Shown piece after piece: positions 2,400 through 59,112 of a stretch of DNA of 64,000 nt. The stretch's first letter is position 1, and every line of letters starts with the position of its first letter. This stretch comes from Atriophallophorus winterbourni (Eukaryota; Platyhelminthes; Trematoda; Plagiorchiida; Microphallidae). The notes beneath the pieces are model-generated. The model did no database searches and had not been told where the DNA came from. It saw nothing but the letters and a program-made list of their open reading frames with translations. The position numbers were made by a program, and so were the translations under genes. Location: assembly GCA_013407085.1 (NCBI GenBank), contig JACCGJ010019683.1, positions 124,001-188,000 of the forward strand, written 5' to 3'.

Positions 2400-2880
2400 A
2401 GTGTGGGCGTATGCAATAATTACATCCCAATGATAAATAACCTCGGTAATGTGTTGCTCACATCCCCCGCACATCATTGTATAAGATGTCTGTTTGGCGA
2501 AATGAAAAGTTTAAATTATTGGGATTGTGGTGATGGAACGAGTGGGTCAAAAACTATGGTGAAAATGAAACACATATTGGAAAATCTACTTTGGGCATCT
2601 TTCAGTATCTGAAATCAAGATGCAAGATTGATAAAAGTATTCGATGGACTGTAAAGGGTTTTCTGTGTGATTATCACGAGTAAAAATTCAAATCAGTTTA
2701 ACAACTAAATGATGTTCGTTTGCATGCATTTCCATCACGACTGGTTTTGTGATTTTTGCACTAATCCTGTGGGGCCGGTAAGATCATGATCCACATAAGC
2801 ATGAAACAGTGGAAGAATGGAAACCAAGTTGCGCATGTATGCCACTCTTGGATGAGGTTGATACAACCTTGGTACGCTAA
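2400..2880 (-). repeat. Degenerate hammerhead-repeat (retrozyme-like) copies
   Basis: Read on the minus strand, 2700-2880 carries the unit found at 48.1 kb: the segment AGTGGCATACATGCGCAAC, then TTCCACTGTTTCATGC, a mutated hammerhead core near 2740-2765, and the 3' end GATGGAAATGCATGCAAACG. The core has lost CUGAUGA and GAAA, so it should not cleave. At 2440-2520 a second, weaker match (GTGTTGCTCACATCC) belongs to the subtype seen at 23.5 kb. Confidence 0.6.
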
Positions 2881-3540: not shown

Positions 3541-3665
3541 TTAATTGCATGCATTTTCATCAGGCACAAACACACCATAACCGGTTTAGTGCTGTTTGCA
3601 CTCATCAGGTAGATACAGTAGGATCGGGATCGACATGCGCTTGAAACAGTGGAACTTATATTTAA
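3541..3665 (-). repeat. Hammerhead-repeat copy with near-complete core
   Basis: On the minus strand the core CUGAUGA lies at 3608-3602. It is followed by a perfect 4-bp stem II (GUGC/GCAC, loop AAACA) at 3601-3589 and then UAAA in place of GAAA. The G12-to-U change should abolish cleavage and stem I is poor. The 3' boundary is the family sequence AATGCATGCAATTAAG. Confidence 0.65.
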
Positions 3666-9989: not shown

Positions 9990-10085
9990 TGCATGCGGAT
10001 CCTGATCTTACTGTCCCTACGTGATGAGTGCAAACAGCACGAAACCGGTCGTGGGGTGTGTGATGGAAATGCATGCAAATGAATA
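9990..10085 (+). ncRNA. Hammerhead ribozyme repeat, one core substitution
   Basis: Stem I strands CCCUAC (10015-10020) and GUGGGG (10051-10056) pair over 6 bp. Stem II is GUGC-AAACA-GCAC (10028-10040), followed by GAAA at 10041-10044 and a CCGGUC cleavage-site segment at 10045-10050. The core reads GUGAUGA in place of CUGAUGA (C3 to G). C3 pairs with G8 in the known fold, so this copy is probably inactive. It is 5' truncated near 9990 and ends with the family sequence GGAAATGCATGCAAATG. Confidence 0.75.
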
Positions 10086-11559: not shown

Positions 11560-13487
11560 GTTACTTGACATGTCACTTATTCGCCATGACCGTGAAACGA
11601 GAGCAGGAGTAGTAGCTTTGTACTACAGACAAAACCTGCGCCGTGGAAGTACGGATCCAGATATCGTGTTACGGGATACATTATGGTGTTCAGTCCGATT
11701 AGATAACGGCGAAGACTGTGTTTTGGGAGTAGTATATCGCCCACCATCTGCACAGGAAACTTACAATCTGGCCCTACTCGATTGAATTCACATGGTTACT
11801 TCCAGCTTCATTTTTAGATTTTTAATCATGGGTGACTTCAATTTATCGAATCTGCAGAGCAGCACAATTCATCCAGAACACTTCCTGTAACGCGAATTCA
11901 GTTGTTTGCTGGATGATATTCCTCTTTATAACCATATTGCATGTAATGCCCCAAACCGCAGAACCGATGTACATTAACCCTTGGATTTCGTTCTGACAAG
12001 CAATGAACACGATATTGATAGCGTTTCTAACGAATGTCCACATGGACTAAATGATCACGACGTTATCCAGTTTAAATATCTGTTTGAAGATGTTGGAACA
12101 AATGATTCCCTTAAATCAGTTAGACGGATTTGAGTGATTCTCTTATAAACACGATTAACTGCCAACCGGAAACCGGCAACGTATGTGAGTTTTGGGTATG
12201 GCTAATATCTAATCTCAAGAATTCAATTGAAGTGAGCTACGAATTTGTCCTCAGGAACACAAAAACCACGAATTTAAACTAAGAAGCCGAACTCGTAAGT
12301 GGTTAAATGTACGAAACATTGCTTGGCGACACCATCGGCAAAAACAACCATTAGAGACCTGGGAAACATTAGATTTACTGCGGAACAAATTAAACTAATT
12401 TGTCATCTAGGACTATTTATAGTTACAATAACAGATACCACGCTTGATGGGGCTCAACCCCAAAATACTTTATCGTATGGTTAACGATCAAGCTAAGGTG
12501 AAACCTGGAGTTGCGTCCGTGAAGACATCAGCTGGACCAACAGCAACTGCATCAGAAACTGCTGAATATTTATCCACGTTTTATTCATCTGTATTCAGCC
12601 CGAGAGAACATGCATTAAATATCCCAAATCAAACCATTTGAACCACGGTTGTCATGAGTGAAATAAATATAACGTCGAAAAGCGTCTTTTAAGCATTACT
12701 TAATCTAAAAACCGGAGAGTCTTCCGTGACCGACGAAACAATCCCGCTAATATTGAAGCAATGTTCGAATTTGCCATTCAAACCACTCACATATCTACCT
12801 AATTAGTACAAAGAGCACAAAACTGGTCGTGGGGTGTGTGTGATGGAAATGCATTCAAATGTTCAAACAAACACTGGCAAATAGAGTGATCCCGACAGAT
12901 TGGAAACGCAGGATAAATTCTCCTAGTTATAAATGTGGAAATGGCTCGGATGTTTTTAATTACCGACCCGTTACTCGGTTACCTCTGATTTTCAAAAAAA
13001 CTTGAGTGCCTCATTTTTGACGATCTAATCATACATTTCGGAAATAATCAGTTGCTACCGAGGAAACAGCATGGATTTAGACGGAATTATTCCTGTTTAT
13101 CTAATTTACTGATAACGCTATATGATTGGACACAAGCTGTAGATAAAGGACAAGCAATACACGCCTGTTACCTTGATATCTCCAAAGAATTTCATCATGT
13201 TAACTATACCCTACTACTGCAGACGCCAGAAAATCTTGGTATCGCCAGATAATTGTTGAATTGTCTAAATGACCACCTAACAAGTGCGCGTTGACGGTGC
13301 ATTGTCGAAGCCAATCGCATCAACTAGCGGAGTTCCCCAAGGTTCAGTCCTTGGACCGATCCTATTTCTGGTTTATGACAACGAAGTAATGAAAACCGTT
13401 CAATGTAACATTTCGTTATTCGCAGATGATATAAAGCTATTGTGTTTCATCCATAGCCAAAAATTCAGTATGCTATTCGCTCCATAA
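11560..13487 (+). mobile_element. Degenerate CR1-type retrotransposon, interrupted
   Basis: Endonuclease pieces (SLIRHDRETRAGVVALYYRQ, DTLWCSVRLDNGEDCVLGVV at 11570-11780, MGDFNLSNLQ at about 11826) are followed by linker and RT pieces: [59 protein letters not shown] and FADDIKLL. The order is that of a nearly complete ORF2. The DNA stops matching at about 13487, where a Penelope-like element begins. A hammerhead module interrupts it at about 12795-12860. Confidence 0.85.
12795..12860 (+). repeat. Decayed hammerhead module inserted in a CR1 frame
   Basis: The segment aligns with the module at 10.01 kb: the core CTGATGAG is now CTAATTAG, stem II and GAAA are mutated, but CTGGTCGTGGGGTGTGTG and GGAAATGCATTCAAATG are clear. 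It sits between CR1 RT sequence encoding PLTY and QTLANR, so it is a short later insertion. Confidence 0.65.
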
Positions 13488-14885
13488 GTTCAAGAAGTTA
13501 TTAGAGTTTTATAAGAAACGTTCATCAGAAAAATTTAATCGATCATTTTCTAGCAACCAGTATTCGAGTGTTTTCAAGTTATCTAATCGGCAACTTTCGC
13601 AAGCTCAGCAAAGATTGTTGGAGAAGGGCTTGAATTTCCGCATAAGTAAGAGCTTGGTGAAGGCTGAGGATAATATTACTTGTATTGAGTGATCATGAAA
13701 TGCATTTCCAAATGAACAGGCAGATGCGGTATGAAACCATATCTATGATGTCATTAAAACCAGGAACAAGGCGATGCAAACCTTGATTCACACGAAAGAC
13801 AAGTACTTCATACGCTGAAGCAAGATACAAATATAGCCATTACTAAGGCTGATAAAGGTAAAGTAACGGTAATTTTGAACAAAATTGAATATTTTGACAA
13901 GGTTGGAGTACACTAATCAGAGGGCTCTTATGAACGGATAGATAATGGAAAAATGAAAAAGGTAATGGATAACTGCAACAAGGGTAGTCTCTACGTACTT
14001 ACGATGCGTTAAGGAGAGTTTAAAAAAGGGCTTGTGGTATAACCTGTATCCCAAGTCTACTCTAACTCATATGTTCTACGACCTACCTAAAATACACAAA
14101 GAAACCATTCCCTAAGACCTATAGTCGACGGTATCTGATCACCTGCTCACAAGTCAGCAAGACATTTGGCTTATTTCTTGAAACCTCAAGTCGGCAATAC
14201 AGCCTCGTTCAGCAAGAACGCATATGACTTTACAGCACGCTTATAGTCCTTAAAAATTGATGACGATTATGTGAGCGCTTTGTTCACCAACGTCGATACA
14301 ACCTGTGCGTTACAACTAGCTAGACTGACCTTGGAATCTGGTGCCAGTTTGTCAGATGGCACAAACTTGAGCGTCCAGCAAATTATCAACGGTGTATCGC
14401 TCTTCCTAACCATGAACCGATTGGTATTTAATGAGTAATTATATCGACAAAAAGAAGGGTTGACAGTGTGTTCACCGATATCTGCAGTACTCGCGAACAT
14501 GTAGATGGAGCATTTCGAAAACAAAGCCCTTAACAATGAAGGGGCAAAGCCAAAATTACGGTGGAGTTAAGTTGAAGACACATTTGTTATTATTAAGTAA
14601 GATCAGTTAGAGTCCTTCTTCAACCATTTAATAGTAGACGGGAAAATAAAAACTTCTAGCGGAAACCTATCGATACAGATGCGGCAACCCGGCATGCGAG
14701 GGAATATCAATCCCTTATTCGTGATTCCGACTTGGTGGAACACGTTTTAGATACAGGTCACAGCGTCGACCTAGACAATGTGGTAATATTGAGACTCGGT
14801 ATTAAACCGTATAGCGAAATCCTACATGTGGAGGCGGTCGAAATTGCCAAGGTCAACTGGCGGTAATTAAGTTGGATGGGGTAGA
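13488..14885 (+). mobile_element. Degenerate Penelope-like retroelement (RT plus GIY-YIG remnant)
   Basis: Pieces in order are QAQQRLLEKGLNFRISKS (13600-13660), the ITKADKGKVTVIL box (about 13840-13880), FYDLPKIHKET, VSALFTNVDTTCALQLA, NLSVQQIINGVSLFLTMNR, SPISAVLANM, and a mutated catalytic segment before DTFVII (about 14575). The last part, EYQSLIRDSDLVEHVLDTGH followed by SVDLDNV, resembles the carboxy end of the GIY-YIG endonuclease of Penelope-like elements. Many stops. It follows directly on broken CR1 sequence. Confidence 0.8.
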
Positions 14886-20870: not shown

Positions 20871-21429
20871 TCAATGATTTGTCACATTTTGCGTGCACGC
20901 GTGTAATTAGTTGCGACACGTGACAGATCTTACCTTACCACTAATCACCTTCGCACAGACGACACGTTTTGCGAGCAGCAGTTTACCTTCTTTTAACTGG
21001 GTCAACCAAAAGTACAACCAATTCTGTAAAAATGGGTACGGTCGGGGTTGGTTGATATGGCATCGTGTGGCGTTGGCGCAAAGTGACGAGGTTTATTTCG
21101 TCACCAGATTTAGCCGCGAGTTGCCAGTTTCCCGTTGAGAATGTTGGTATGAAATTGATTGCACGGTGTGTAATCCTTCAAGTAGTTCCCGACAGTTGGA
21201 GATTCAAAGGGACAACCGAATCCCGACACATTTTCCGATTGACCCAAATGTTCACCATACCCAATTGTGAAATCGGTATTAACATTGGTTTGCAAATAAT
21301 CTACGAAAGCCTAGCAACTGTCTAATGCTTGGAACCACATTGCTAAATGTGAGCAACATTTCGCCTCGTTAACCGATGCCAAATCACATATTTTGTTTAT
21401 ATTTGCGACTACTCATCCGTGCCAAGATC

Positions 21430-21600
21430 ATCGAACTATTCACAAAGTTGATCACGTCGGTCCATAATGGAAGCACTGGACTCGAGTTTCGCTCTTATTT
21501 GAGCTCATCAGCAGTGCATAACCTCCGCCTCGGGTGGGACTCGATCCTCCGATCATCACAATTGTAGTCCCGTGCCTTAACGACTTGGGCTACCGTCCAC
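21430..21600 (-). repeat. tRNA-like/hammerhead SINE (Sm-alpha-like)
   Basis: On the minus strand from about 21598 there is a tRNA-like promoter: an A-box-like TAGCCCAAGTCGTTAAGG, and about 35 nt later a B-box-like GGATCGAGTCC. A hammerhead ribozyme follows at once. This order (Pol III type-2 promoter, then hammerhead) is that described for the schistosome Sm-alpha family. Both outer limits are uncertain because no second copy is present in the window. Confidence 0.7.
21473..21517 (-). ncRNA. Hammerhead ribozyme, core intact
   Basis: Minus strand, 5' to 3': stem I GCACUG (21517-21512), CUGAUGA (21511-21505), stem II GCUC (21504-21501), loop AAAUAA (21500-21495), GAGC (21494-21491), GAAA (21490-21487), short stem III CUCGAG (21486-21481), U16.1 and C17 (21480, 21479), then stem I CAGUGC (21478-21473). 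Every conserved core base is present, the cleavage triplet is GUC, and both stems pair perfectly. Predicted cleavage lies between 21479 and 21478. The stem III loop is minimal, as in other retroelement hammerheads. Confidence 0.88.
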
Positions 21601-21989
21601 CGTTTGACCGATCACAATTAAGCGTTTATGAACTGTTCTCCAAACTGGCACATTTGAGTAACTTTGTTAGCCCTATCAGTTCAGAAGGAGCCAGCAACAT
21701 CTGTTGTGGTCGCCCAACCGAACAGATCTCCGTGTTTTTATGTTCATCACGTTTTGTGCGCAGACTTCGAGGGTACTCGGTCCAACGATAACCACGTCCC
21801 CGCTAATTTGACACCCACTTGACCCCATTGTGTCCTTATTCATTCCTCAGGTCAACCATTCCAACGTTAATCAAGTTCCCCCATGATTTTCATAGCCAAG
21901 GAGAACACCAATTTGTCAAATGCGTCTAATACGCGCATGACGAACAATAAAAACGCGTCTTTCTTATATCGGAATATCCTGTTATAATA

Positions 21990-23895: not shown

Positions 23896-24337
23896 TGCAT
23901 GATAGCAGATCTATATCATTCAATCAAATCAATGGAAATGACTAATTTTTCGGGTGCTCACAACCCTCGCAATTGTACGCTACAGCCAGTTTGTCGTTCG
24001 TTGCCAATCTGGTCAACAGCGGCTTCCAAGTATAATTTTTTAACTGTTATACTATTTCGCGAATCCCACCTAAGCAAAAGTAAAATCAATCTTATAGTTG
24101 CAACCAACATCCAGCAATGGAAGAATCATTCGATTGATATTTTGCAATCGACCATTAAATGTTAAAACTACTATTTACTATTGGCATTCAACCTGAACAA
24201 TATAAATGTAATCATTCTGCATAGGAATACAATATTTCTTTAAAAGAATGTTTGCAAACCTTCCCTGAATTGATGTGAACTTAATGGGGACGATAACATT
24301 AAACGATATTTCATATACCAAAATATTCATGTGCATG

Positions 24338-24375
24338 CTTTTCCGTCACACACACACCCACGATATCACATATAC
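24338..24375 (-). repeat. Truncated 3' part of a hammerhead repeat
   Basis: On the minus strand CGTGGGTGTGTGTGTGAC and AAGCATGCACATGAATATTT match the family downstream of the ribozyme cleavage site. The homology begins within one base of the predicted cleavage position. Confidence 0.5.
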
Positions 24376-25634: not shown

Positions 25635-25725
25635 AAATGCTCATTTGCATGCACCACGACCGGTTTCGTGTTGTTTGCACTCAGCATGCATGAATAGTAG
25701 GATCGGATCCGCATGCGCATACAGC
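25635..25725 (-). repeat. Hammerhead-repeat copy with scrambled core
   Basis: The minus strand has GAAACCGGTCGTGG and TGCATGCAAATGAGCATTTT of the family, and a stem II position with one mismatch. The 5' core reads ATGCTGA in place of CTGATGA. The upstream family sequence GCATGCGGATCCGATCCTAC is preserved. Confidence 0.6.
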
Positions 25726-35341: not shown

Positions 35342-37335
35342 TTAAAATGTTCGATTATAACAACAGTTCTTCATTGCTGCATGAGCGTGTTTCCACCACA
35401 TTTTCGCCAACGTTTTTGCGTGTTCATCTTCGTGGGATTCGAACCAGTTAAAATTTGCTTGTAGTTTTTCCAGTTCCTGACACATTGGAACTCTCCCAAA
35501 TGCATCACGCGTTCGCTCCGTTACTGAAATATAAAGCGATAATTTTGACTGAAACGATTTCGTTTGGTTGTTGAATCAACTATAAACTCACCGGTTGGTA
35601 ACTCGTTCAACACTCTTTCGCCGCACCATCCACAACGCTCAAACAAGTTCGCTTTATGGTCAGCATGGGAACATGGATTATTATCACATTTAAAAGTACA
35701 ATGTTGCACAAGCAAATGTGTTTGTAGTTTACATTGCGCCAATAATAAGCTCTCGGGATCATTGTAGGCCAAATTAAATCGCTTCCAGCAATACACGCAC
35801 ACAGTAGACCAATCGAAGTACGCTGGCGTTAAATAACTACTCAAACGGCCTTGATTGACGCAACGTGAAAATTGCAATTGCAATTTATTCACATGGCCAG
35901 ATTTAGACAGGTGCTTGAGCGAGCCTCGAAGGCAGCGGATTGGACGTTCGTAATACGACACGTTAGAAACTTGTTCATCATCTGTTGTTCCACATACTTG
36001 ACAAGCACCTAGTAGTGAATCAGTTTCGTTCAATCCTGAATGATAACAAGCAACATGTGCTTGGAGCATGGCGTTACTAGATATATAACTGGATTCCAGA
36101 GAATCAGCAATCTGAGAGCGAGCATTCAATTGTCTCAGCATAGTTCCGAGTTCACTAAAATCGCAAATTGGGCAAGCAAACATCGAATCTGCGTTGGAAG
36201 CCAAATTGTTGTTTGCAAATTGTGACATTCGTGTATGGTTCCAAGACAAAAGTTCGAGGAATCCTAAGTGAATTTCATCGATGTGTCTTTCGAGGGCGTT
36301 TAACCCTCGTCTTCGTAGTACCGAGTAATCTACAGGCTGGCGCCTAATCTGCATTTCAGCCTCTGATTCCGAACTAGAAAAGCTTGAATCAGTTTTGCAT
36401 TTACCCCCATGTTGTTGTTGTGTTTTTACCCCAATTGATTTTATTTGGTTATTCCAGAAAGATTTTTCATTTAAAATTTCTTCATCTGTCGGAAATCGTG
36501 AAGTCTGAAACGGGCATTCCGCACACATACCAGGTCCCCTTTTATAAGCATGTCTACAGAGTATATGTGCGATCAAATGCACTTTAGATCGAAATCGCAT
36601 TGACGATTCGTGCGGTAAAAGCGTTTTTGTGCGTGAATTTCTTCTCGCCGCACCGCTGATTTGGACTTTTCTTTCTTGCTCTGTACAGCAAAACAGACAA
36701 ACAAATGGTAGGCTTTCTTGATTGCTGTTTGAAGGTACAACGAAACCGCTCAAGTATGCCGCTTTTTGTTGAACACACCCGTGAGTTTCGATGCTGCTTG
36801 TGTCAATTTCGTTGTCCCATCTATTTCCACATCGGCGACAGTTCAACTTTGAAAAACGCATTTGAATATGCGATTCAGATATCTTTGATTCCAGATGATG
36901 ATCCTGGGAATGTTGCAATACCAATAAATGTGCGTAAAGAAGGTCACCGCGTTTAAAAATATGTCCACATATAAAACAAAGATAACCTTGGCCAATAGGA
37001 GTTTGTGTGCAAACGTCCGAAAGTTTTCGTTTGTATTTGACTAAACGACCGGCTTTGTAACATGCGATGTTATTTTGTATAAGATTTGACCCCGCTGCTT
37101 TTATACTCGGCAGCCTAATATCGCCTGTATAATTTGAAACGCGCGGCGCCTCCTTATGCATTGATATTTGGCTCGTAATTTTTATAGGTGGCATTTTTTG
37201 ACTTTTGTTCTCTAGCGAACTGCAGCATACATTATCCAACGCACTACCACTATCCAACTTATCCACAAAGCGACGTCTCTTTTGCACATGTATCAAAAAA
37301 TCGGGATTCGCGGTCTCCTTTCGGTCTCCACTCAT
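35342..37335 (-). CDS. Two-exon C2H2-type zinc-finger protein (641 aa)
   Basis: Exon 1 is 37335-35592 and exon 2 is 35523-35342, around a 68-bp intron (35591-35524). The donor is G/GTGAGT and the acceptor TTATATTTCAG. Splicing in phase 1 replaces the exon-1 read-through stop with 60 more codons ending NRTF and a stop, which supports the intron. I start at the first ATG (MSGDRKETANPDFLIHVQKR). Cys/His clusters are scattered: CFICGHIFKRGDLLYAH with a second His (C-X2-C-X12-H-X5-H, residues about 120-143), CRRCGNRW, FVCLFCCTEQ, CAECPFQ, FACPICDFSE, CQVCGTTDD, CVYCWKRF with a long loop to HLLVQH, and CGWCGERV. A likely nuclear DNA- or RNA-binding host protein; family unknown to me. Confidence 0.75.
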
Positions 37336-37380
37336 TGTTACAAAACTCCAGATTTCACGTGTTAAACCACGTGATAACAA

Positions 37381-37924
37381 AATTTTCTGATCAATAATAA
37401 CCTTGGCTCACGCGCGTATTCAACATTCGAAAAATAGTGTGAAAATTGAATGAAATTTTTTCATCACTTAGATCTAAGCTATGTCTCGCAAATATTAAAA
37501 ATACTTCAACGCAGATACTAAAAATAATATTACCCGGTAGACCACCTGAGCAGATAAATTATAATTTGTATTTGGTGGAATTAAGTATTTTGGGGTAATG
37601 GATCACACAATTTAGCTTTGATCCACGATGGAGTTAAAGGGTTTCCCTACACAGTTAAGATTTCAAGTATGTATGTCAATGACTTAAAGATGACTGACTG
37701 ACAGCATTTTCCTTGAAAGCGGATTGTGGTGATGTAGTGCTAATTCTTGAACTTTTCGAGCAAATGAATGCAGGCTCAAGTAATGTTCAAGGTACTTCAA
37801 GCTTCTTATATTCTAAAACGCATGAAGCTTAAGAATATACATAAAATATCCACTAAAATGCGAGTGCATAAATACAAGATAAACAATTAGAATAAACTAT
37901 ATATAAGTGGTCGGTAAACAGATA
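37381..37924. other. Probable 5' flank of the zinc-finger gene
   Basis: Upstream of the minus-strand start; AT-rich, no repeat recognised. Confidence 0.4.
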
Positions 37925-39830: not shown

Positions 39831-39985
39831 CTGGTGTCTGTTGATACCGGTGGTATCTCCCGGTCAGATCGGTAACACCGATTTATCCCGACCAAGAAAT
39901 TAATACTGATGCGAAAATACTGTTTTTCACACACCATTACACCCAGTTTTGATTGACTTCGAAGCAGTAAAATACACATATATTA

Positions 39986-40520
39986 TTTGCGATTTAGAGG
40001 AAAAATCCTTATTTGCAAATTGAAATTTAGCTTTTTATATGGGGACTAATCTAAGTCTCGCAGTTGATGCAATGTAGCACCGATAACTGTTTGGAATATT
40101 TTTGCAACATTCCAATAACAGCAGAATGGTAGTTTTTGTTTAAAGTCAGATTTTTTATTAATAAGTAGTATATGACGTTCGAAAAGCAGGACTTTAAACA
40201 AAAACTACCATCCTGCTATTATTGGAATGTTGCAAAAATATTCCAAACAGTTATCGGTGCTACATTGCATCAACTGCGGGACTTAGATTAGTCCCTATAT
40301 AAAAAGCTAAATTTCAATTTGCAAATGAGGATTTATCCTCGAAATCGCAAATAAATGGGTTTAGCACAAAGTCAGAACGGCGTTCGAATGTCAGGTCACG
40401 GATACGCACACCTGATGAGCGGCAATAACCGCGCAACCGGTCGTGTGCTTACGTCCTGCTTTTCGAACGTCATATACTACTTATTAATAAAAATCTGACT
40501 TTAAACAAAAACACATATAT
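39986..40520. repeat. Foldback structure with about 165-bp arms and an embedded hammerhead
   Basis: Left arm 39986-40154 is the reverse complement of 40190-40354. Shared blocks include GATGCAATGTAGCACCGATA, GGAATATTTTTGCAACATTC and GCAAATTGAAATTTAGC. A third segment, 40453-40516 (CCTGCTTTTCGAACGTCATA onward), is the reverse complement of about 40134-40200. A hammerhead-like sequence lies between the right arm and that third segment. There is no coding capacity. The near-intact CR1 begins just after it. Confidence 0.8.
40400..40456 (+). ncRNA. Hammerhead ribozyme motif, one core substitution
   Basis: CUGAUGA at 40412-40418; stem II GCGG/CCGC with loop CAAUAA (40419-40432); GCAA at 40433-40436 where GAAA is expected; CCGGUC at 40437-40442. 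Stem I GCACAC/GUGUGC pairs perfectly (40406-40411 with 40443-40448). Across an internal loop it continues with GGA/UCC (40400-40402 with 40454-40456), the arrangement that supports tertiary contacts in natural hammerheads. The single A13-to-C change likely slows or stops cleavage. Confidence 0.75.
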
Positions 40521-47815: not shown

Positions 47816-48147
47816 GTTACATGTTTTGAATTCGAAACCACTGTTAATTACAACGAACAGCGAACTACGATGTTCAAACGCAGATTCACAGTGTGGCTGT
47901 GGGTAAAACGATACTCGGTCAACAAGTTGTATTTGTATGCCACTGTTAGGTAATGTTGGTAAGACCAACCTATTCAATCAAATGAGCCCACACACATGTA
48001 GACTGGTTATGAACCCATGACCATGAGTGTGGGCTCATGTAATTGAACAGGTTTGTCGTACCAACTTTACCCAACAGTGGCACACAAGCGCAACTTGTTT
48101 ACCATTCTTCCACTGTTTCAAGCGCATGCGAATCCTGATTCTACATT

Positions 48148-48189
48148 CCCTAACTGATGAGTGCAAACAGCACGAAACCAGACTTGGGG
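48148..48189 (+). ncRNA. Hammerhead ribozyme, stem I compensated, cleavage site changed
   Basis: CUGAUGA at 48154-48160, stem II GUGC-AAACA-GCAC at 48161-48173, GAAA at 48174-48177, then CCAGAC where most copies have CCGGUC. Stem I is CCCUAA (48148-48153) with UUGGGG (48184-48189). Compared with CCCUAC/GUGGGG of the copies at 10.0 and 57.7 kb, the C-G closing pair has become A-U on both strands. U16.1 has become A, so the cleavage triplet is not of the NUH type and activity is doubtful. Confidence 0.75.
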
Positions 48190-48392
48190 TGTGTATGCGT
48201 GACGGGAGTGCATGAAAATTAGCTTTTTTGTTTAGTACTCGGTCGTTTATGATCGTCTTGAGTGATTGACTTAGAATCACTGTCCTATGTTATATTTGAA
48301 TGTCGTGCTGCGTTGTAGAAACCCTATTAAACAGTGGCTTTACGAATGTTTCGATACCCACTGAACCAGATATTTACTGACTCTACCTAATG

Positions 48393-54005: not shown

Positions 54006-54665
54006 TTCGTACTGCAACATACGTTTATCGCCAGGAAACGGTACTTATACGTATGAGATTGTTAGTTGTTTTTGTTTATCTTCTGCATATATTATGCCAC
54101 TAACTTGATTTCGATTATTAATCGCTTTACTTCTTATTTACACCTGTATCGATTGGACATCAATACTGAAGTTGAAAGTTTATACGAGTAAGGATTTTAA
54201 ACAATTTGATCATCCAAGAAAAGCAAAAAAGAGGAAGTGCGTTGCATTAGGAGTCACGAATAAGCACTGGCTTTTAATCAAATCCAGTATACCATGCATA
54301 GCTTTCCGAATGCAACTTATTTAAATAAAGACAACAATCTCAATTAAAGACCGGATTGCTTAGCTCATAACTCCGTAATTTATTAAATTATTATTTACTT
54401 TTGTGTTACATTTTACAAGAATTTCATTGATAAGGTATCGCCACGTTCGTATTAGAAATTTCACCAAATGCGATAAATTTGGTTAGTGTATTATTCTATT
54501 GTTCAAACGGATAATGCCACCTTCAGCTGAAACTGCATTCTGCCACCTGGTTCAAGAATCTACATATCTCTTCAGATGTGCATTTTACATACGGTATACA
54601 AACAGTATATCGGCAATTTTTATCCGATTTTTCTGACGGGTATTTTACCTTCATCACTTGGCGTT
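54006..54665. other. No recognised feature
   Basis: 3' flank of the ORF; AT-rich, no gene or shared repeat. Confidence 0.4.
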
Positions 54666-54669
54666 TTAC

Positions 54670-55547
54670 AAAACTTTTTGGATAACCGTGGTCTATGAGC
54701 CTTTGGCTCGCTTCACGGTGCGCTTGTTTTTAGTTTCTTTCGTCGCTGCACAGGTTTTTTATCTCATGGAAAATGGAATAAGTTATGGACCTAAAGACCT
54801 GTCTTGGATGAGCGGAAGTGTATCGCAGTACAGCATCTTTATCGATAGGTTTCCGATAGACAGAAAGTTTTATTTTCCCATCTACTTTTAGTGCTAAACA
54901 GTCCAAAACGGAAGAGAGCGTGTGCAAGATTCCACTTTCTTTGTGACCGTAATACGTGGGTCTATTTCATTTAAATATTTGAAGATGGCCTCTAATTGAT
55001 CTCGCTTGATGATAACAAATGTGTCATCAACATAGCGCAGCCATAATTTTGGCTTGAACCCTTCATTGTTAAGGGCTTTGTTCTCAAAATTCTCCATATA
55101 CATGTTCGCAAGTATTGGAAATATCGGTGAACCCATTGCTAACCCTTCTTTTTGTCTATATAATTACTCATTAAATACGAAGCGATTCATGCTTAGGAAG
55201 AGCGATACACCGTTAATAATTTGCTGGACGCTCAAGTTTGTGCGTTCTGACAAACTGGCATCCGATTCCAAGGCCCGTCTAGCAAGTTGTAACGCACAGG
55301 TTGTATCGACGTTGGTGAACAAAGCGCTCACATCATCGTCATCATTTGTTACCGACTTTAAACGTGCTGCAAAGTCATACGCGTTCTTGATTAACAAGGC
55401 TGTATTACCGACTAAAGGTTTCAGCAAATAAGCCAAATGTCTAGCTAACTCATGCGCAGGTGATCCGATACCATCGACAATGGGTCTTACAGGCCGTAGA
55501 ACCTAGGAGTTAGAGTAGACTTGATATACAGTTTATGCCACAAGCCT
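54670..55547 (-). mobile_element. Penelope-like element, RT domain
   Basis: Right to left: RPIVDGIGSPAHELARHLAY (about 55490-55430), MAYLLKPLVGNTALLIKNAY, VSALFTNVDTTCALQLARRA, NLSVQQIINGVSLFLSMNRF, a stop, then GSPIFPILANMYMENFENKA, KLWLRYVDDTFVIIKRDQLE (catalytic YVDD intact), a frameshift, and VDGKIKLSVYRKPIDKDAVL. Better preserved than the copy at 13.5-14.9 kb, but the endonuclease end and the amino terminus are missing. Confidence 0.85.
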
Positions 55548-55640
55548 TTCCTACGAGACGTGACACACCATAGGCGTACCATACGCTGTTTAGCGGTAAG
55601 GTCAAATCAATGGAGAGGGGTTGACTATTACTTAAGCATC
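55548..55640 (+). repeat. Dispersed repeat shared with 17596-17692
   Basis: CTACGAGACGTGACACACCA, GCTGTTTAGCGGTAAGGTCA and GGGGTTGACTATTACT align with the copy at 17.6 kb. Confidence 0.55.
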
Positions 55641-55914
55641 TTCCTTGTCCTGTCTATCACCCTTGTTCTGACGAAGCTTCTGTGTCAGAAATGAAACGTT
55701 ACCCATAACCTGCTCTAACCGATTGCACTCAAATTTAGTTGATGTATGGGAGTAAGATACGAATATTGAGCAAATCGCTATCATGACATTCTCCAACGCC
55801 GATTTTTAATAAATGTGACGTTTTACTATAGTATGCATGGGATGGATTATTATTAGTTGGTGATAAAATCAGTATTAGCTCTCTTATATTCGTCGGTTTG
55901 AATAAAACTAAACT

Positions 55915-56349
55915 GTTTTAGTTTACCAAATCAACAGCCAGGGAATTCCAAACAAAACACACATGCACCTAATAAAACTTCCGTTTAGTGTGTAATTTCG
56001 GGGAATGTGAGCAACACATCACTTTGGTCATCCATAATCGCCTTGAGTGCTTGATCACGAATCACTATGTGATTCTGTGTTTGAACATCGTGGTTCGTTG
56101 TACGAACTCTATGCAACAGTGGCATTCAAGTATAACCTTGTTTACCATTTATCCACTGTTTCAAGGCTCACTGAACCTAATCTTACTGTCTCCACCTGAT
56201 GACGGCAAATAGCCAGAAACCGGTATTGGAGTGTAATTTCGGGGAATGTGAGCAACACACCATTAACTGATTTAGTTTACCAAATCGACAGCCAGAGAAT
56301 TCCAAACAAAACACACATGCACCTAATGAAACTTCCGTTTGGTGTGTGA
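55915..56349 (+). repeat. Hammerhead repeat bracketed by an 80-bp direct repeat
   Basis: TTTAGTTTACCAAATC to AACTTCCGTTTAGTGTGT occurs at 55915-55994 and again, with a few changes, at 56266-56349. Between them is one hammerhead unit plus the start of a second: GTGTAATTTCGGGGAATGTG is at 55988 and again at 56231, a period of 243 bp. The unit includes TGATTCTGTGTTTGAACA, AACAGTGGCATTCAAG and the ribozyme at 56190-56231. Confidence 0.72.
56190..56231 (+). ncRNA. Hammerhead ribozyme, nearly intact
   Basis: CUGAUGA at 56196-56202; stem II GGC/GCC with loop AAAUA, closed by a C-A mismatch (56203-56215); GAAA at 56216-56219; CCGGUA at 56220-56225, with GUA a permitted cleavage triplet. Stem I CUCCA (56190-56194) pairs with UGGAG (56227-56231) with one mismatch at the core end. 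All conserved core bases are present. Confidence 0.72.
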
Positions 56350-57364: not shown

Positions 57365-59112
57365 GTAACCACAAACAGCGACATTATCAGAACTCAGAAA
57401 GTTTTATGGTTGTAAAAGTATAAAATTAAAAGCATAAAATCTCTCAAAAAGCGATAGGGACACATACTGCATGATTCATCATAAAATCATCGAGTTTAGA
57501 AGCGAAAATCTCAACGGAATTCGAGCGTATTATTTTTTCAGGCAAAATGTCACAAGTAAGACAAATTCTTACCGAGAAAAAATTACGACGAATATCCAAT
57601 CAAGAATGCGGAATGCTTAAAGCCTTTGAATGTTGTTGTGTTCGAGTAAGACCATTGGTTTTTAGCAAATGGGTAAGGGGGTAGTTTTCAGTATGCACGA
57701 TTTTGAATGCCAACAGGAGGTCACTCCGTATCCGTCGTGTCCCTACCTGAAGAGTGCAAACAGCACGAAACCGGTCGTGGGGTGTTTTGTGTGAAGGAGA
57801 TGCATGCAAATGTGTTCTATATTCGTGTAGATTTAATTTTAACATTATATCATTGAAAGGGAAATTTATGTAACAGGAGACCAACTTTTTCGCACCATGA
57901 TTAATCCTGTCAAGTAGTTCGACATCCTTCCTCCGCCATGGTGCCCAGGATTGGATTGAATATTTCATAACAGGACGAATATACACATTAATGAACTGGG
58001 GTTAGCTTTCAAGCGTGAAAATGCCGAATATCCCTTTTAGAAGACTCAAGATACGGCAGGCTTTATTGTACAGTGTCCGGCAATGTTGTCTAGGCTTAAG
58101 TTTAAACGACACCAGATACCGAGATCTTTTTCTTCGGTGGTCCAGACGAGATCTTGCGTGCCAAGCTGATACGTATGGTGCAGAGATTTTTCAAGCCGAA
58201 GCATTTTAAATTTCGCAATGATAAAACATTTATCTGGTACCAACGAAATAAGGTGCGCAGATCGCGTTGTAATGCCATACAGTCATTAACAGACTTGACA
58301 CGTTTCCGTATTTTAATATCATCGGCAAACAGTTACATCCAATATCCTTTACTATATCGTTGATGTACACCAAGAATAGAAGAGGTCCAAGCGCCGAGCC
58401 TTGCAGAACTCCACTCGTGACGTCTATTCTTCTAGAGAGGGTGCTGCAAACGCGAACTTGGACTTTTTTATCAATCAGATAGTCCTTTATCCAATTCAGC
58501 AACATTCCTGTCATTACATAAGCTTCGAGCATTTTATTAGAATATCATTGTTTACTTTATTGAAAGCTGTGGAAATATCGATGTAGCAAGCATGTACAGC
58601 GTCACATTCGTCTAGTGCCTTGGTCCAATCTTCGAACGTTGTAAGAAGTTTAGATAAACCACCACGATTTCTTCGAAAACCGTGTTGTTATGTGGTCAAA
58701 ATATTTTGGTGTACAAAATGTTCTCTTATACGCGCAGTTACGATGCGTTCAATGAATTTAGATATCACCGGAATTAGCGTTACCGGTCTATAGTTTACAG
58801 TGTCTGAACGGCTACCGCGGTGATATTTTTCCTTCATGTAGGCTGAGATTGAATAAGCGAGTGAGAGGAGCAGTCAAAGCAATGTGACATCTGCGAAGTA
58901 TGGCGGGGATAATTTTGTATGCGCCAGGAGACTTCTTTTCGTTTAATTGACATAGTTCCCGCCTAACTATATATTCAATGACAGTCATTTCACTTAATAA
59001 TTCCAAATGTGGCGAATTTGGTAAAACATGATGCGGAATACAACGCTTAGGATTGAAGACAAGTGAGTAAAACGTTGCTAAGGCATCGTTAGTACCTTGG
59101 GCAGAATGAGTC
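57365..59112 (-). mobile_element. Degenerate CR1-type retrotransposon with a hammerhead insertion
   Basis: Close relative of 45946-47258. 3' side: CAGAACTCAGAAAG tail at 57387. RT end VMKYSIQSWAPWRRKDVELL at about 57960, EEKDLGIW at about 58130, RIDVTSGVLQGSALGPLLFL at about 58400, disrupted fingers to 58690, and the linker/first RT motif (ALATFYSLVFNPKRCIPHH, LNEKKSPGAYKIIPAILRRC) at 59100-58850. The AFD and FADD catalytic boxes are broken. A hammerhead module interrupts the RT end at 57739-57812. Confidence 0.82.
57739..57815 (+). ncRNA. Hammerhead ribozyme module inserted in CR1, structure intact
   Basis: CUGAAGA at 57747-57753 (only position 7 differs from CUGAUGA, and position 7 tolerates any base); stem II GUGC-AAACA-GCAC at 57754-57766; GAAA at 57767-57770; CCGGUC at 57771-57776. 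Stem I CCCUAC (57741-57746) pairs with GUGGGG (57777-57782). Cleavage is predicted after 57776. It ends with GATGCATGCAAATG. The sister CR1 copy at 46.33 kb lacks this segment, so it is a true insertion of about 75 bp. Confidence 0.82.

Follow-up and report, generated by a model that had tools for sequence, protein, structure and literature searches.

We propose that a repeat copy in a 64-kb stretch of the Atriophallophorus winterbourni genome (positions 124,001 to 188,000 of contig JACCGJ010019683.1; hereafter the window) belongs to a family of non-autonomous, retrozyme- or Sm-alpha-like elements that combine a type I hammerhead ribozyme with promoter boxes of the RNA polymerase III (Pol III) type and are probably mobilised by the machinery of Penelope-like elements (PLEs). 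Judged from sequence, this reading has a probability of roughly two in three (0.65). The window copy lies on the minus strand at 21388-21735, measures 348 bp and covers positions 1-348 of a unit whose repeat period, partly in tandem, is about 427 bp. It is 92.5% identical to the full unit at locus L039 and 94.5% identical to the family majority sequence, ranking seventh among 34 alignments of at least 200 bases.

The ribozyme of the window copy, a type I hammerhead at 21473-21517 on the minus strand, scores 37.4 bits with the Rfam model Hammerhead_1 (RF00163; E = 8.3e-6, 64-kb window searched), above the gathering score of 34 bits. Its minus-strand core is complete, with CUGAUGA starting at 21511 and both GAAA and GUC in place; stem I (GCACUG/CAGUGC) is 6 bp long, stem II (GCUC/GAGC) 4 bp, and the palindrome ACUCGAGU forms stem III. 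An earlier inspection of the letters without database searches (the sequence-only reading) had described the same complete core and the same two stems, and the covariance-model score, lying above rather than below the cut-off, bears it out. The cut that it expected between 21479 and 21478 is also the self-cleavage site predicted from the hammerhead alignment, after GUC and between unit positions 257 and 258 (21478..21479, minus strand). The best-scoring hammerhead model in bits is Hammerhead_HH9 (RF02275), the amniote intronic hammerhead, with 41.4 bits over 21469-21522; this is below the HH9 cut-off of 52, and the host is no amniote. A chance hammerhead match is ruled out by the Rfam E-value together with the existence of relatives, and the ribozyme is likely to be capable of cutting itself.

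Ahead of the ribozyme on the same strand lie an A-box-like sequence, TAGCCCAAGTCG (21592-21581), and a B-box-like sequence, GGATCGAGTCC (21547-21537), as in a type 2 Pol III promoter. The B-box consensus is GGTTCGANTCC, from which the window copy departs by one mismatch and which the family majority B box, GGTTCGAATCC, matches perfectly; the majority A box is identical to that of the window copy. The boxes start 45 nt apart, which agrees with the working spacing of short interspersed elements (SINEs), and 19 nt separate the end of the B box from stem I, so the hammerhead does stand directly behind the boxes as first described. At a spacing of 30-65 nt the window holds one A-plus-B pair, compared with 0.07 on average (maximum 1) over 100 Markov-resampled sequences, with a pattern written post hoc, after the sequence had been inspected. 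The association of a hammerhead with a promoter of transfer RNA (tRNA)-like type is confirmed as anatomy. The likeness stops short of a recognisable tRNA fold: neither ARAGORN (bacterial code) nor Rfam called a tRNA when the window copy was scanned, and the relatives scanned (sets of 15 loci and 8 loci) gave no tRNA either. Four T in succession occur nowhere in the majority unit, and transcription by Pol III would thus not be expected to stop inside it; we infer from the two boxes that the element may be transcribed by Pol III. Retrozymes have been described as seemingly promoterless (PMC7761336), and a promoter has been reported in the long terminal repeat (LTR) of a plant retrozyme (PMC12029980). 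Among the papers listed in literature searches aimed at such a promoter (12 of 1,077 in one of them) there was no metazoan retrozyme with a Pol III promoter, and we claim no priority.

Relatives of the window copy exist in number elsewhere in the genome. A ribozyme search of the 537-Mb assembly, in which 74 of 96,317 candidates were scored, gave at least 32 matches, at least 27 of them over the cut-off; these copy counts are lower bounds. The 427-bp-unit family was present at 23 of 30 fetched ribozyme loci and a second ribozyme family at 7 of 30; comparison of flanks showed two of the 23 to be duplicates, leaving 21 distinct loci, or 22 places when the window is counted. Four further copies besides the selected one were found in 200 kb of two contigs, each with a known ribozyme match, from which the number of copies per genome can be put very roughly at 10,000. 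BLAST found no second copy within the window, and a tandem array around the window copy, a truncated monomer, was rejected after no significant repeat was found within 500 bases upstream. The sequence-only reading of a single copy outside any array is thus correct for the window itself and does not hold for the genome, where the family is dispersed and forms tandem units in other places. Loci L038, L039 and L046 have variants in common that are rare or absent elsewhere, and in 8 of 12 within-locus pairs the two members resemble each other more closely than the median of other loci. Phage records and viral contigs were also searched for relatives and none was found; a loose B-box-plus-hammerhead pattern matched 29 viral stretches (L001-L029).

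The tandem arrangement resembles that of retrozymes. Thirteen of 36 pieces span a unit junction, and two same-direction ribozyme-bearing units occur in 5 of the 22 places (L033, L039, L044, L047 and L055), the tandem copy at L044 holding two ribozymes. The 427-bp period falls within the tandem units of 150-450 bp, each with a type I hammerhead, described for metazoan non-LTR retrozymes, which also have a GC content below 50% (0.48 in the majority unit here) and co-existing PLEs (PMC7229834, PMC7761336). Same-direction units would also be expected of a satellite-like tandem repeat spread by recombination, in which ribozyme and boxes are relics, and schistosome hammerhead repeats have been termed satellite DNA (in a title cited by PMC6155905). 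However, direct repeats lie around single, tandem and paired copies alike, the arrays are short in the stretches seen, and the zones in which copies end are recurrent (see below); this explanation, already disfavoured, appears very improbable.

It is the anatomy of the insertions that points to PLEs. Wherever two copies of the 427-bp family lie on opposite strands within 120 bp of each other they are head-to-head (9/9), and the same test applied to the second family gives 10/10, or 9/9 without one locus seen twice; all three ribozyme-bearing repeat families of the window have head-to-head copies in the genome. Piece ends gather in two zones: 12 of 35 lie at unit 334-340, at a distance of 77-83 nt from the ribozyme cut on its 3' side, and another 9 at unit 357-372, 100-115 nt past it. 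Local alignment may have placed these ends a few bases too far. Exactly one arm extends to unit 357 or beyond in six of the nine head-to-head pairs. The 3' end of the window copy (21388-21402, minus strand, unit 334-348) lies in or just past the first zone, where reverse transcription is presumed to start, the copy itself ending at 348, between the two zones. Of 22 insertions, 8 are bounded by exact direct repeats of at least 8 bases, compared with 2.8% of 462 cross-locus control pairings; the repeat at L040 is element sequence and was dropped, which leaves 7 of 22 insertions with direct repeats of 9-12 bases. A single pair of such repeats encloses the tandem L044, and the same is true of each of the head-to-head pairs L030, L031 and L034, which suggests that each arose in one insertion event. 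A target duplication of the window copy was rejected, its longest direct repeat being 6 bases. Because insertion lengths are broadly spread, unit-length insertions are not claimed as proof of circular templates. Copies at four different loci (L034, L036, L043 and L055) begin at unit 208-210, just before the ribozyme, a shared start that perhaps reflects a stop of reverse transcription.

Head-to-head arrangement, two end zones and 9-12-base duplications together fit what is described for PLE-mobilised elements. PLEs carry direct and inverted pseudo-LTRs, and one of the inverted repeats may bear a 31-bp tail; their target duplications are 8-10 bp long, and head-to-head is their commonest inverted arrangement (PMC3846280). 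A PLE protein was shown to cut and extend both strands, with reverse transcription from two adjacent internal sites that mostly begins 111-118 bp into the open reading frame; the hammerhead cut lies at 26 bp, that is 85-92 nt away (PMC11167929), compared with 77-83 and 100-115 nt in the 427-bp element. The likeness thus covers partial tandems, head-to-head inverted repeats, a tail of 30-40 bp that may be absent, target duplications (8-10 bp in PLEs) and a hammerhead upstream of the reverse-transcription start (PMC3846280, PMC11167929). One difference is coding capacity: the 427-bp unit is too small for a reverse transcriptase or an endonuclease, and PLE-like genes sit elsewhere.

Searches by tblastn with PLE-like proteins revealed two fragments of PLE reverse transcriptase genes in the window, at 54541-55622 on the minus strand, which is of the candidate helper type, and at 13492-14642 on the plus strand. 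Outside the window, L077 holds a fragment of a reverse transcriptase with the motif YVDD, which matches RVT_1 at 20 bits, under the cut-off, with a YIGQTGR stretch in the neighbouring frame that we read as GIY-YIG by eye and in which Pfam gave no match; L069 (L068/L069) reaches 29.4 bits for RVT_1 against a cut-off of 29.6, and L074 has a weak GIY-YIG match (E = 0.008) below the cut-off. Among the 120 homologues listed for the L077 fragment most carry PF00078 and PF26215, and at least five also carry PF01541 (GIY-YIG). A hammerhead-like motif, CTGACGA..GAAAC, is located at 55668-55697 on the plus strand, 46 bp from an oppositely oriented PLE gene fragment, and at L068 8635(+) a close relative of it stands ahead of a PLE-like reading frame. 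The 427-bp element itself, as a decayed copy at L068 8314-8602 whose 3' limit was set by eye, adjoins the 5' region of a PLE-like gene.

The sequence-only reading had likened the window copy to the Sm-alpha element of schistosomes. As anatomy, a hammerhead behind a tRNA-like promoter, the comparison stands: Sm-alpha and Sj-alpha are described as tRNA-related, short, very numerous non-autonomous trematode elements with a type I hammerhead (PMC2770079, PMC8490949). The representative Sm-alpha sequence W36.2_W001 has 335 bp (PMC8490949), compared with the 427-bp unit here, in which the head-to-head pairs and two end zones were seen; Sm-alpha was compared by description rather than by sequence. 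The likeness raises the alternative of an ordinary tRNA-derived SINE of Sm-alpha type, moved by long interspersed elements (LINEs), whose body would carry the hammerhead as a mere passenger of the SINE. The A and B boxes, the dispersed 5'-truncated copies, some with target duplications, the abundance of LINE copies in the window and the description of Sm-alpha as a tRNA-Gln-TTG-related SINE (PMC2770079) all agree with it. On the other hand, pieces that cross the unit junction, two internal end zones and head-to-head neighbours are the pattern of PLEs and retrozymes, which makes a plain SINE the poorer fit, and the majority unit lacks any stretch of four A. We consider the SINE explanation unlikely.

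Somewhat less likely still is a miniature derivative of an autonomous PLE, a remnant resembling a pseudo-LTR that gained an inserted tRNA-like promoter. The insertion pattern and the distance from ribozyme to start are PLE-like, as such a derivative would have them, and retrozymes have been suggested to arise by PLE reduction (PMC11722881), whereas the hammerhead-like motif near two PLE stretches (at L068 8635+ and at 55668+ of the window) differs from that of the 427-bp element. Moreover, when the majority unit was compared with five stretches located at PLE fragments or upstream of them, which represent few of the genome's PLEs, no similarity was seen.

That last result also counts against our preferred reading, a retrozyme-like element mobilised by PLE machinery: with no similarity between the unit and the five PLE stretches compared, it is the insertion anatomy by itself that points to a PLE helper. 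Further observations weigh on the same side. Every Pfam match of the PLE fragments lies below its curated cut-off, and two boxes are what speaks for use of Pol III. Fourteen of the 35 piece ends lie in neither zone. At 12 of 22 insertions, the window copy included, no direct repeat of at least 7 bases was found, and at L031 the right end was placed by eye. In four of the 12 within-locus pairs (L033, L046, L047 and L055) the two units or arms resemble each other less than the median of other loci. Covariation in the ribozyme stems across copies does not exceed that of shuffles. Folding of the circularised majority sequence gives a z-score of -3.3 against 150 shuffles, a point in favour, and RNAalifold on the copies yields no long conserved fold, with 20 scattered pairs of which four show a double change, so the z-score is without support from covariation. 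Since loci were picked by ribozyme score, ribozyme conservation is biased and copies lacking a ribozyme are hidden; among the four copies not selected in this way, those at L063, L068 and L078 have a ribozyme that appears decayed by eye, and the minus-strand piece at L064 lacks that part. In the PLE system itself, insertion in vitro was unaffected by ribozyme mutants, so that a role of the ribozyme in insertion as such is not required, and the PLE hammerhead required protein for cutting (PMC11167929).

A cycle consistent with the anatomy can nevertheless be proposed. Pol III would transcribe a copy from its internal A and B boxes, and the transcript would run through the ribozyme and through any tandem units. 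Cutting by the ribozyme between units could then release 427-nt RNAs from a tandem copy, which may be ligated into circles. A PLE reverse transcriptase/endonuclease would cut both target strands, and copying would start inside the RNA, in the zone of unit 334-372 marked by the copy ends. The products would be the 5'-truncated, part-tandem or head-to-head paired copies that are found in the genome, some of them between direct repeats of 9-12 bases. A transcript of the window copy could still cut itself and shed its tRNA-like leader; alone it would give no unit-length circle. The full version of this proposal, a Pol III-driven retrozyme that would use Penelope-type machinery in trans and hold promoter, self-cutting ribozyme and PLE-style reverse-transcription start within 427 bp, is offered tentatively, and we lean slightly towards doubting it as a whole.

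The window contains several other features. The second hammerhead family has a unit of about 233 bp; its stem III is very short, and the stretch examined gave no match resembling a B box. Its copies lie at 57738-57812(+), 48147-48219(+), 10012-10081(+), 3545-3612(-) and 12795-12862(+), and further at 56187-56234(+), 2736-2762(-), 25654-25682(-) and 24328-24363(-), several of them being partial or having a broken core; elsewhere the family occurs in tandem, with three full and two partial units at L057, and in head-to-head pairs. The copy at 57738 interrupts a LINE, a relative of which at 46.0-46.7 kb has no such copy. A LINE protein has best matches of up to 61% identity; among the named matches, Paragonimus westermani reaches 51% and Dicrocoelium 38-41%. 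A third hammerhead, at 40391-40465(+), scores 36.8 bits with the HH9 model, below the cut-off, and has GCAA instead of GAAA in its core. It adjoins an inverted copy at 39983-40192 and has relatives in L071, head-to-head as well, and in L061. Sub-threshold matches to MIR6274 and MIR7504 at 40089-40248(-) are probably the palindrome at the junction of these inverted repeats. A long exon at 35521-37407(-) encodes a protein (35521-37404) with C2H2-like zinc fingers that has 12 matches, the 11 named ones all from flukes: Paragonimus is best (46, 45 and 42% identity), followed by Opisthorchis, Clonorchis and Dicrocoelium (39-44%), Calicophoron (36%) and two schistosomatids (33-34%). Together with the LINE protein matches, this order points to a fluke that is probably not a schistosome.

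PLEs or LINEs have been named in the literature as candidates for the machinery that moves animal retrozymes (PMC7229834, PMC11722881, PMC7761336). The anatomy of the copies provides a signature that separates mobilisation by PLEs from mobilisation by LINEs and can be tested on any genome. If the proposed cycle is true, the many copies would be fossil insertions that record steps of PLE transposition, including priming on both target strands, alternative internal starts and a multi-unit or circular template. A retrozyme-like element with Pol III-type boxes of its own would also link the SINE-like Sm-alpha elements to the retrozymes described as promoterless.
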